Of a stretch of 64,000 bases of DNA, positions 1-3,235 are shown one piece after another (the first letter of the stretch is position 1; every line of letters begins with the position of its first letter). Source of the DNA: Scytolyngbya sp. HA4215-MV1. GTDB taxonomy: Bacteria > Cyanobacteriota > Cyanobacteriia > Leptolyngbyales > Leptolyngbyaceae. The translations under genes and the position numbers were made by a program. The stretch is taken from positions 124,001-188,000 of the forward strand of contig JAHHIA010000010.1 of NCBI GenBank assembly GCA_019359045.1. The letters run 5' to 3'. Under the pieces are notes generated by a model. The model had not been told where the DNA came from, did no database searches, and saw only the letters and a list, made by a program, of their open reading frames with translations.

Positions 1-495
1 GGCTTTTACCAGGCGGGTGAATTGAAAGTTGCGTTTGTGTTTGATGCAGAGCGACCGGGGTTGAACGATCGGGTACAGTTGCCTCGCTGGCAAGGACAAC
101 TGATCGCTGCCAGTTGTTCTCTCAGTTCTGACTATGCCTGGTTATTTCTCACGACTCAAGTGCAGGGACAAATGCATTACTGTTGTGTCGTGATTCAAGC
201 CGACGGACAGATTGCGGCAACAGCGCAGGCACGGGCAGGTGAGGTGCATTGGTTGGTGATGTTGGCGCAGGGAGGGGCGATCTCGGCAGCACCCTATTGT
301 GCAGCAGGCGAGTTTTTCCTTGCTGCAACTGACGAAGGCATCATTCGAGTAGAAATTCGCAATAGTCAGCTAGTGCACACTCGGACATTTTCTGATACCG
401 AACCGTTTGTCAATCTCAATTGCCGACTATTGCCCGATACCGATGGCATTTACGTCATCGGTCATCAAGCGATCCAAAGGTTGAAATTAGGATAA
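1..495 (+). CDS. C-terminal part of an unknown protein (5' end outside window)
   Basis: The reading frame is open from the first base and ends with TAA at 493-495, so only the last 164 residues of a longer protein are seen. A TTG at 22 could be read as a start, but the frame continues upstream and no ribosome site precedes it, so I treat the gene as 5'-truncated by the window edge. The visible part alternates short hydrophobic strands and turns (for example the segments around YAWLFLTT, YCCVVIQADG and GIYVIGHQAIQRL), as in beta-propeller or other all-beta proteins. No catalytic motif or membrane segment is visible and I do not recognise the family. Confidence 0.7.
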   Translation, partial: GFYQAGELKVAFVFDAERPGLNDRVQLPRWQGQLIAASCSLSSDYAWLFLTTQVQGQMHYCCVVIQADGQIAATAQARAGEVHWLVMLAQGGAISAAPYCAAGEFFLAATDEGIIRVEIRNSQLVHTRTFSDTEPFVNLNCRLLPDTDGIYVIGHQAIQRLKLG

Positions 496-559: not shown

Positions 560-1306
560 TTGTCTCAACAAAAGATGATGAAACTGACAACAATGGATGG
601 ATTCCTTGCCCCCTTGGGGAAGCCAGTGATTGGTCTTTCTTTATCTGGCATCTCTCACTTAGACACTTATGAATTGACCTCCGATAGCTTGCTTTATTTC
701 CGCAGTTGGCAAAAGCGTTTTTTGGATATTACAGGTGCTTTAACGGGAGTTTTATTGGGTTTTCCCATGTTTTTGATTGTCGCCTTGGTCGTGAGAATGA
801 TCGATCGGGTTCCGGTGCTTTTTTCTCAACAACGCTTTGGTTTAAATGGAGAAGCCTTTACCCTCTATAAACTGCGTACACTACGAATTATCGAAACTCG
901 TGACATGGTGGATGTCAACCGGATTCAAGTCAAACCTGCTTATGAAACAACTCTGACAGGTAAGTTTTGGCGTACGACCAGTATTGACGAAATTGTTCAG
1001 TTTTGGTTAGTTCTAAAAGGGGACATGAGCTTAATTGGACATCGCCCGTTTCCCATGTACTACATCCCCCATTTGGACAAAATTGAGGGTATGAATCAGC
1101 ACAAACTGGATCATTATTTGGGAATCGTTCGCCAATATAAACCGGGAATGAGCAGTTTAAGTTCCATCAATGGTAGAGGCGATCTGACGATGCAGCAAAA
1201 GCTAGAGTACGATTTGATTTACGCTCAAAATGCTTGCTTTTGGTATGATGTCAAGATTTTATTGCATACCTTAGTGGTTGTCATCCTAAGAAAGGGCGCG
1301 AAATAA
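560..1306 (+). CDS. Bacterial sugar transferase (polyprenyl-phosphate glycosyl-1-phosphate transferase family)
   Basis: Predicted membrane enzyme that moves a sugar-1-phosphate from a nucleotide sugar to a polyprenyl phosphate, the first step of exopolysaccharide or O-antigen type repeat-unit synthesis. The 248-aa product has the family plan: RSWQKRFLDITGA, one hydrophobic membrane hairpin (about residues 58-78), then the cytoplasmic catalytic part with QQRFG, YKLRTL, the TGKFWRTTSIDEIVQFW segment and GDMSLIGHRPFP. It belongs to the short form without the extra N-terminal membrane helices of WbaP or WcaJ and resembles the cyanobacterial HepC-like group. The listed TTG start has no clear ribosome site; ATG codons at 575 or 578 are equally possible. 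It sits alone, 64 nt after the previous gene. Confidence 0.85.
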   Translation: MSQQKMMKLTTMDGFLAPLGKPVIGLSLSGISHLDTYELTSDSLLYFRSWQKRFLDITGALTGVLLGFPMFLIVALVVRMIDRVPVLFSQQRFGLNGEAFTLYKLRTLRIIETRDMVDVNRIQVKPAYETTLTGKFWRTTSIDEIVQFWLVLKGDMSLIGHRPFPMYYIPHLDKIEGMNQHKLDHYLGIVRQYKPGMSSLSSINGRGDLTMQQKLEYDLIYAQNACFWYDVKILLHTLVVVILRKGAK

Positions 1307-1342: not shown

Positions 1343-2389
1343 ATGACTACAAAAACGATGACCCAGCTCCCAATTCCACAATTCTTTGATGCCTGTCGGG
1401 TGGGCGAAGTTTGGCGGGTTCCCTATCAACAGCGGGCAGCACAGGCGAGAGATTGGGCAAAGCAGTACAGTTTGCAACCTGCTGCTAAAGATAAAACCCG
1501 CATTTGTTTGATGATTATTGATGCTCAAAATACGTTTTGTATTTCTGATTTTGAGCTGTTTGTAGGGGGACGATCGGGCAAAGGTGCGATCGAGGATAAT
1601 GTGAGGCTGTGTGAGTTTATTTATCGCAACCTGGGCGTGATTACTGAAATTGCGCCGACGATGGATACCCATACCTCCATGCAGATCTTTCACGCTGTCT
1701 TTTGGGTCAATGATGCTGGTGAACATCCGACACCCATGACGATGATTACGCTGGATGAGGTGCAGGCAGGCAAATGGAAGGTAAACCCCGCGATCGCCTA
1801 CTCCCTCGCCAAAGGCAACTACATGGCGTTACAATCCTTCGCGTTGCACTACACCCAACGCCTCAGTCAGGATGGCAAATACCCCCTCACCATTTGGCCC
1901 TACCACTCAATGTTGGGGGGAATTGGTCACGCGCTAGTTTCCTCCGTAGAAGAGGCCTGTTTCTTCCATAACCTGGCTCGTAGCAGCCAGACCAACTTTG
2001 AAATTAAGGGGGGGAATCCGCTGACAGAAAACTACTCAGTCTTGCGTCCAGAAGTACTGGATGATGCAACTGGACGACCGATCGCCCAAAAAAATACCCG
2101 TTTTATTCAAAAGCTGCTGGAGTTTGACGCCGTACTGATTGCCGGACAGGCAAAGAGTCACTGTGTGGCATGGACGATCGATGACCTGTTAACAGAAATT
2201 CAGGCACAAGATCCCAAACTGGCACAAAAAGTTTATCTGTTGGAAGACTGCACATCACCGGTAGTCGTTCCTGGTGTAGTGGACTTTACTGACCAGGCAA
2301 ATGCTGCTTTTCAACGCTTTGCTGATGCTGGGATGCAATTGGTGCAGTCTACTCAGGCAATGGATACTTGGGTCGGCATCACCCTTTAG
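1343..2389 (+). CDS. Isochorismatase/nicotinamidase-like cysteine hydrolase
   Basis: Large (348 aa) member of the isochorismatase-like hydrolase fold, whose best-known enzymes deamidate nicotinamide or hydrolyse isochorismate. The catalytic triad is readable: Asp60 in LMIIDAQNTF, Lys222 in EIKGGNP and Cys274 in AKSHCVAW. Asp108 and His110 (MDTH) and His188 (PYHSM) are placed like the metal ligands of nicotinamidases. A long N-terminal extension (about 50 residues) and the insertion between 120 and 185 make it bigger than ordinary nicotinamidases (about 200 aa). The ATG has a ribosome site AGGAG 8 nt upstream. The next gene, a VWA protein, begins 9 to 51 nt downstream, so the two are probably cotranscribed. 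Substrate unknown; a nicotinamide-type amide is the best guess. Confidence 0.8.
   Translation: MTTKTMTQLPIPQFFDACRVGEVWRVPYQQRAAQARDWAKQYSLQPAAKDKTRICLMIIDAQNTFCISDFELFVGGRSGKGAIEDNVRLCEFIYRNLGVITEIAPTMDTHTSMQIFHAVFWVNDAGEHPTPMTMITLDEVQAGKWKVNPAIAYSLAKGNYMALQSFALHYTQRLSQDGKYPLTIWPYHSMLGGIGHALVSSVEEACFFHNLARSSQTNFEIKGGNPLTENYSVLRPEVLDDATGRPIAQKNTRFIQKLLEFDAVLIAGQAKSHCVAWTIDDLLTEIQAQDPKLAQKVYLLEDCTSPVVVPGVVDFTDQANAAFQRFADAGMQLVQSTQAMDTWVGITL
1790..1797. repeat. HIP1 octamer (example of a dispersed repeat)
   Basis: GCGATCGC, the highly iterated palindrome of cyanobacterial genomes. Other copies are at 7823-7830 and 9743-9750, and the core CGATCG occurs very often in the window, mostly inside genes. 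It is the main sign that the DNA is cyanobacterial. Confidence 0.9.
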
Positions 2390-2440
2390 AGGTCAGCCAT
2401 GAAACCTACCAAAATCGCAAATCGCAAATCGGAGTCAACC

Positions 2441-3235
2441 ATGAGTCAATCCATTCCTAACCTCAACCAACTATTCCAATCAGCTCAGGCAGAAGGTGTG
2501 CTTTCTTCTGCTTCTTTACAGGCGCTCAACGTTCATGATATTGGTGCCCAAATCCAGGCAGGGCTGGGGATTCACGTCGATGATGTGATTGCTAGTGAGG
2601 TAGTGTTGGTGACACTCATGCCGGATGATTCGGGTTCGATTCAGTATGGCAATAATGCTGCTACGGTTCGTGCTGGGCACAACACTGTACTGGATGCGTT
2701 ACTCAGCTCCAATCAATCTGCTAATATCTTGGCGCACAACCGTTACCTCAATGGGTTTGTCCTTTATCCTTACTGCCCAGTCTCGCGAGCAGTGCGAATG
2801 GACGATCGCAACTACACCCCCAATCAAGGTACCCCGCTTTATGACCAGACTGTGGTGTTGCTGGGAACTGTGCTGGCAAAGGCACAGGAGTTTTCTGACA
2901 ATGGGGTGCCTGTTCGCACAGTGACGTTAATTATTACCGACGGAGCAGATGCCCACTCCCGTCGGGCTACCGCAAAAACGGTGCGATCGTTAGTGCAAGA
3001 TATGCTGCGAACCGAAAACCACATCATTGCTGCCATGGGGATTGATGATGGGGGACAGACCGATTTTCGTCAGGTGTTTCGAGATATGGGTATACGGGAT
3101 GAATGGATTCTCACCCCTGGTAATGGGCAAAAGGAAATTCGGCAGGCGTTTCAAATGTTCTCGCAATCTGCGGTGCGGGCTAGTCAGAGTAGCGGGAATT
3201 TTAGTCAAGCGGCTTTAGGAGGCTTTGGGGCATAG
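2441..3235 (+). CDS. von Willebrand factor A domain protein
   Basis: A 264-aa protein consisting almost entirely of one VWA domain, a metal-dependent protein-binding module. The MIDAS metal site is intact: DDSGS near the start of the domain, a threonine in GTPLYD and the aspartate in ITDGAD. There is no signal peptide or membrane helix, so it should act in the cytoplasm. The C terminus (about 25 residues) is rich in Ser, Gly, Ala and Gln and probably disordered. I choose the ATG at 2441 because GGAG lies 6 nt before it; an in-frame ATG at 2399 would add a 14-residue tail encoded by a short tandem AAATCGC repeat. It is paired with the upstream hydrolase and followed by a strong hairpin. Partner and function are unknown. 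Confidence 0.82.
   Translation: MSQSIPNLNQLFQSAQAEGVLSSASLQALNVHDIGAQIQAGLGIHVDDVIASEVVLVTLMPDDSGSIQYGNNAATVRAGHNTVLDALLSSNQSANILAHNRYLNGFVLYPYCPVSRAVRMDDRNYTPNQGTPLYDQTVVLLGTVLAKAQEFSDNGVPVRTVTLIITDGADAHSRRATAKTVRSLVQDMLRTENHIIAAMGIDDGGQTDFRQVFRDMGIRDEWILTPGNGQKEIRQAFQMFSQSAVRASQSSGNFSQAALGGFGA

Follow-up and report, generated by a model that had tools for sequence, protein, structure and literature searches.

In the genome of the cyanobacterium Scytolyngbya sp. HA4215-MV1, a gene for a nicotinamidase-like hydrolase (HYD) is followed on the same strand by a gene for a VWA protein, which raises the question of whether the two belong to one functional unit and on which compound the enzyme might act. 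The window, meaning the whole stretch of 64,000 nucleotides that was analysed, begins inside a kinase gene (KIN), and further genes of the locus precede it on the same contig (C13). Positions are those of the window unless the contig is named.

Contig C13 117559-118251 (off-window), minus strand: NrtR; NrtR_WHD (PF21906) 1.9e-28, NUDIX 6.8e-22
Contig C13 118478-120577 (off-window): histidine kinase, inserted between NrtR and PP2C
Contig C13 120781-121620 (off-window): PP2C phosphatase; PP2C_2 1.2e-19
Contig C13 121692-122504 (off-window): ADP-ribosylglycohydrolase; ADP_ribosyl_GH 9.4e-38
1..495, plus strand: C-terminal part of KIN; full gene C13:122546-124495 (649 aa), start off-window
560..1306, plus strand: bacterial sugar transferase (PF02397, 2e-46), between KIN and HYD
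1343..2389, plus strand: HYD, predicted diverged nicotinamidase, 348 aa; triad D60/K222/C274, metal ligands D108/H110/H117/H188
2441..3235 (alternative start 2399), plus strand: VWA protein with intact MIDAS, 264 or 278 aa
3257..3281: terminator-like hairpin 3′ of the VWA gene, 10-bp stem, z -3.3

KIN was assigned after upstream DNA had been added, the full ORF (L129:10546-12495) ending in the ORF at the window start. The preliminary description of this DNA had overlooked that 22-495 is the 3′ end of this cassette gene. The HYD and VWA reading frames, first called in that description, are real and lie where they had been placed. The gap between them is 9 or 51 nt, according to which VWA start is used; 51 nt is the likelier value because homologues begin at the 2441 start. 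The strong terminator-like hairpin reported behind them also exists, but the run of T that follows it is on the minus strand only. Scans of both proteins against Pfam, NCBIfam and PADLOC gave no match, and they are therefore unannotated rather than known. The sole match in a PHROGs scan of the window proteins was to an unnamed VWA-like family.

Boundaries and distribution of the cassette in cyanobacteria

The two genes had been described as a two-gene unit, an isolated pair that neighbourhood clustering led us to reject. Across 80 homologous cyanobacterial loci the recurrent order is NrtR (divergent) / PP2C - (ADP-ribosylglycohydrolase) - kinase - HYD - VWA, and HYD and VWA are the 3′ half of a larger conserved cassette with kinase and PP2C, in which the constant partner of VWA is the kinase. 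The ADP-ribosylglycohydrolase occurs in a minority of cassettes only and is outside the viral core. Where HYD and VWA lie close together on one contig, VWA is downstream on the same strand, at 40-793 nt in the fetched loci. A gene-neighbourhood search had been suggested, with homologues that are never adjacent as the outcome that would speak against the pair; adjacency proved to be conserved. Chance adjacency was rejected on the grounds of repeated neighbourhoods, cyanobacterial and viral, and of co-occurrence statistics. The sugar transferase is an insertion and no member of the cassette; other cassettes have no such gene at that position. A MoxR-VWA chaperone pairing was also rejected, as no AAA+ gene is adjacent: none is found in the cassette of this genome, and no recurrent one in the cyanobacterial loci.

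Within the phylum, the cassette is patchily distributed. HYD is present in 92 of 386 genomes and VWA (strong matches) in 11, while full-length KIN occupies exactly these 11 genomes, with a score drop from 352 to 65 bits beyond them (Fisher 1.6e-21). VWA and kinase are thus inseparable, since both occur in the identical 11 of 386 genomes. HYD stands without VWA and KIN in 81 of the 92 cyanobacteria that bear it and therefore has no need of them; it is a frequent companion of VWA-KIN and also a solitary gene. Both window proteins are conserved at 60-84 % across cyanobacteria. The distance matrices of the cassette genes match (mirror-tree correlations), which is evidence of joint inheritance only, as co-inheritance of neighbours explains the match without physical contact.

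Several loci depart from the usual arrangement. In G209, HYD, VWA and KIN are found on C4, C16 and C50, respectively, and the cassette appears dispersed. Metagenome-assembled contigs labelled Aminicenantes (L103), Gracilibacteria (L090) and Proteobacteria (L111) carry HYD genes 70-74 % identical, which are probably misbinned cyanobacterial DNA. In Microcoleus-type loci (L088, L095, L107 and others), a solitary HYD sits in a conserved block with RNA ligase and polynucleotide kinase-phosphatase, together with a SNARE-associated-type membrane protein and a mercuric-reductase-like flavoprotein.

Control genes, operators and viral cassettes

The MIDAS of the VWA protein (D62-x-S64-x-S66...T131...D167), described as intact, indeed has D62, S66, T131 and D167 invariant in 59 sequences, phage ones included, while S64, judged from a smaller sequence set, is kept in at least 90 %. 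The model (pLDDT 92.4) shows the usual VWA fold (Z 17.9), to which a helical N-terminal part is added. S241, S243 and S248 of the C-terminal helix are the same in all 59 sequences, most of which share ~20 % identity with the window protein; being kept at this level of identity, they are candidate phosphorylation sites. The Pfam Pkinase match of KIN is weak (0.016), a call that is backed by the conserved kinase residues of a 56-copy alignment, in which the GGE motif, the Lys, the catalytic Asp and the metal Asp are kept in nearly all copies. The catalytic residues of PP2C are conserved as well. A C-terminal zinc ribbon (CxxC...CxxC) is carried by the kinase in 22/22 cyanobacterial-type copies and in 5/68 viral copies.

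In many loci, paired GTGT-N7-ACAC sites are conserved between NrtR and PP2C. In this genome a double site lies directly before PP2C, though an insertion splits NrtR from PP2C, and it overlaps a promoter with an 11/12 match (TTGACA-N17-TATACT). In a search of the whole phylum, the cassette holds the only double site of this 6.6 Mb genome. Double operators also precede the cassette in G284, G227, G191, G344, G278 and G014, and in G127 one precedes a solitary HYD. Other double-site matches across the phylum include simple repeats and unrelated places, and solitary HYD genes show weak operator enrichment, at about 3 of roughly 55 loci. The locus thus has features of an NrtR regulon, namely a Nudix domain with the NrtR winged helix and a palindromic operator at the target promoter, the sites being predicted. 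NrtR-type proteins sense ADP-ribose (PMC9503650); binding of NrtR to the GTGT-N7-ACAC sites, and its ligand in this locus, are predicted likewise.

Relatives of HYD were found on 134 viral contigs, representing 61 distinct loci. Within 6 kb on the same strand, VWA accompanies HYD in 53 of these loci, PP2C in 49 and the kinase in 49, with all three together in 43/61, usually in the order HYD - VWA - PP2C - kinase. Many of these cassettes are on contigs of 100–600 kb (up to 485 kb in IMG/VR, 462-595 kb in phage records). The terminase PF03237 was detected in 11/30 viral contigs; as PF03237 is one of several terminase families, the identity of the contigs rests partly on IMG/VR and the phage records.

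Cassette genes aside, PncB is the commonest viral neighbour (17 loci), followed by a NadM-like adenylyltransferase (14) and NadE (11); NadD is found in 5 loci. A PF04095 phosphoribosyltransferase, which curated models assign to the nicotinate (PncB) type, is present in 22/30 viral contigs tested, and no PncB was detected in the other 8/30. The distance from this gene to HYD is at most 30 kb in 20/21 distinct cases, against 4.8 expected. The viral NadD and NadE representatives pass curated cut-offs, while the NadM-like representative does not. Together, viral HYD and the PncB, NadD or NadM-like, and NadE genes would supply a route from nicotinamide through nicotinate to NAD+. Since the cassette clusters with these genes, viral HYD probably provides the first step of deamidating NAD+ salvage.

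NADAR and macro-domain-like genes also recur near viral cassettes, at 6 and 4 loci, respectively (L160:630-1106, L201:3395-3913). Outside viruses and cyanobacteria, a HYD relative is carried by the 0.8 Mb plasmid of Variovorax sp. WDL1 (L122, NZ_LR594690.1 652477-665328), where two Nudix genes, a macro-domain gene, a deoxyribosyltransferase and a NAD kinase form another NAD/ADP-ribose island on a megaplasmid. On a 0.93 Mb plasmid of Vibrio vulnificus (L124), the gene beside a HYD relative belongs to the RNA ligase family and a TerD-family gene is close by; plasmids of V. parahaemolyticus also bear relatives.

Three described systems resemble the cassette in part. The TerY-P triad consists, as described in PMC11090510 (after Anantharaman 2012), of VWA, PP2C and a Ser/Thr kinase with a zinc ribbon. 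The cassette has the same three protein types in adjacent genes, a MIDAS-bearing VWA and, in cyanobacterial-type copies, zinc-ribbon kinases; this likeness is one of protein types. The fourth gene is nicotinamidase-like here, whereas nucleases or helicases take this place in TerY-P, and most phage cassette kinases lack the zinc ribbon. No model named TerY-P matched in the PADLOC scans. Similarly, the predicted ARG-centric anti-ADP-ribosylation systems (PMC9503650 section 3.8), in which the glycohydrolase goes with a Nudix or WYL repressor and a chaperone-type gene but has no coupled transferase, share with the cassette an ADP-ribosylglycohydrolase, an NrtR-like Nudix repressor and a vWA gene in one locus, but the text of PMC9503650 has no PP2C, isochorismatase-fold hydrolase or nicotinamidase in them, and their phosphatases are from other families. 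Finally, large phages are described to resynthesise NAD+ by NadV, NadM and NadR along an amidated route from nicotinamide to NMN (PMC9503650 section 3.6; PMC7824862). Cassette phages also encode NAD+ resynthesis but would use a deamidating route (nicotinamidase, PncB, NadD, NadE) and add a phospho-signalling cassette. Term searches of PMC9503650 and of the jumbo-phage survey PMC7824862 turned up neither a unit of this kind with a nicotinamidase or an isochorismatase-fold protein nor any mention of deamidating NAD salvage in phages, and no description of the four-gene cassette was found in the openly licensed literature.

These likenesses lend themselves to a different reading, which we judge rather unlikely, namely that the cassette is a host defence or stress module. 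The TerY-P-like triad and the ADP-ribosylglycohydrolase would undo phage-driven ADP-ribosylation, HYD would only dispose of nicotinamide, and phages would carry their copies against rival phages or to blunt the host. The combination of glycohydrolase, Nudix repressor and vWA matches ARG-centric systems, antiphage activity is described for TerY-P-like modules whose kinase has an OB fold (Gao 2020, as cited in PMC11090510), and the patchy distribution of the cassette is in keeping with such a role. However, few cassettes have the glycohydrolase, which is outside the viral core whereas HYD is in it, and the commonest phage neighbours are NAD-synthesis enzymes.

Identity of the hydrolase

The claim of an intact Asp-Lys-Cys triad was borne out. 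In 66 HYD sequences, cyanobacterial and viral, D60, K222 and C274 never vary, nor do D108, H110 and H188, and at least 90 % of the 66 have H117. A HYD profile compared with PDB sequences retrieved nicotinamidases from 6e-8, with the D, H, WPxH, KG and C motifs aligned. The metal-site residues align with D51, H53 and H94 of yeast Pnc1, whose aligned residues we take to be its triad and metal ligands. The best VIA fold matches of the AF2 model of HYD (pLDDT 95.5) are nicotinamidases from Drosophila, yeast, Acinetobacter, Leishmania and Pyrococcus (Z 22.1-18.8), and the first named amidase of another kind is N-carbamoylsarcosine amidase (Z 16.7). Compared with the PncA/Pnc1 enzymes of Acinetobacter (2wt9), yeast (2h0r) and Drosophila (9u8m), HYD is alike in triad, Asp-His metal site, WPxH motif and fold (Z ~21-22). 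It differs in having only 16-22 % identity in structural alignment, a ~50-residue N-terminal extension, an insertion at ~120-185, scores under the curated PncA models, and the fixed company of VWA, kinase and PP2C. The window protein did not match the E. coli-type PncA model NF008623, and phage members score 29-50 bits against its cut-off of 174. A phylum-wide search for E. coli-type PncA was uninformative, because the cut-off was passed in only 1/12 control genomes. This genome encodes 7 further proteins that Pfam places in the isochorismatase family, and none shows the DxH + WPxH metal site, hence HYD may be its only nicotinamidase. Triad, metal site and modelled fold thus suggest that HYD is a diverged nicotinamidase, with enzyme activity predicted accordingly from these features, but a fold and active site in common with nicotinamidases do not prove its substrate.

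It could be argued that HYD cleaves another amide (e.g., a pyrazinamide-like, carbamoyl or ureido compound) in a cassette unrelated to NAD, since the isochorismatase fold spans many amidases and RutB, BiuH and N-carbamoylsarcosine amidases match the HYD fold. This is improbable: carbamoylsarcosine, maleamate and ureidoacrylate amidases come lower in the fold ranking, at Z 16-17, than the nicotinamidases that head it (Z 22), HYD has metal ligands and a WPxH motif of PncA type, and NrtR, ADP-ribosylglycohydrolase, PncB and NadE are neighbours. The initial guess of a nicotinamide or NAD-derived substrate is, in turn, well supported by active site, fold, NrtR operator and the NAD-salvage neighbours in phages. 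A role in RNA repair, with nicotinamide as the by-product of NAD-dependent 2′-phosphate removal and RNA ligase and polynucleotide kinase as the real partners, is highly improbable, for although these two genes are near HYD in many Microcoleus-type loci and some phages, and an RNA ligase adjoins it on a Vibrio plasmid, they are outside the cassette proper and several kb off in cyanobacterial loci.

Proposed mechanism and meaning

Nicotinamide is the product of NAD+-cleaving enzymes. In the mechanism that we propose, cleavage of NAD+ would raise ADP-ribose, upon which the cyanobacterial NrtR would release the cassette promoter. HYD would then convert nicotinamide to nicotinate for the deamidating route (PncB, NadD, NadE) to NAD+. 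Kinase and PP2C could act as a reversible phospho-switch setting the state of VWA, HYD or both, with VWA as a metal-dependent adaptor and probable phospho-target through which the activity or the assembly of HYD would be tuned; a scheme of this kind has been proposed for TerY-P triads. In giant phages, the four genes stand next to phage-borne genes for PncB, for NadD or a NadM-like enzyme, and for NadE, and these phages plausibly use them to rebuild NAD+ during infection; alternatively, they may restore it against NAD-depleting defences. The account draws on gene sets, active sites, folds, operators, co-occurrence and the company of NAD genes, all of which the sequences support, and it predicts an enzyme activity for HYD, phospho-control, a physical complex and a role in conflict. 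Taken as a whole, from nicotinamidase and NrtR derepression through the phospho-switch via VWA to NAD+ rebuilding by phages, we consider it reasonably probable.

A broader claim is put forward more tentatively, as a serious possibility: giant phages and some cyanobacteria would have in common a nicotinamidase cassette that is gated by phosphorylation and forms the first step of a deamidating NAD+ salvage encoded by the phage; this would be the third viral NAD+ route and the first with its own kinase, phosphatase and VWA control. Two unannotated proteins, HYD and VWA, thereby gain a likely function, and a TerY-P-like phospho-signalling triad is tied to one specific metabolite enzyme. The prediction that follows is that giant phages remake NAD+ via nicotinate. 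Depleting NAD+ is among the main weapons of bacterial immunity, and a regulated counter-pathway of this kind would therefore be directly testable.
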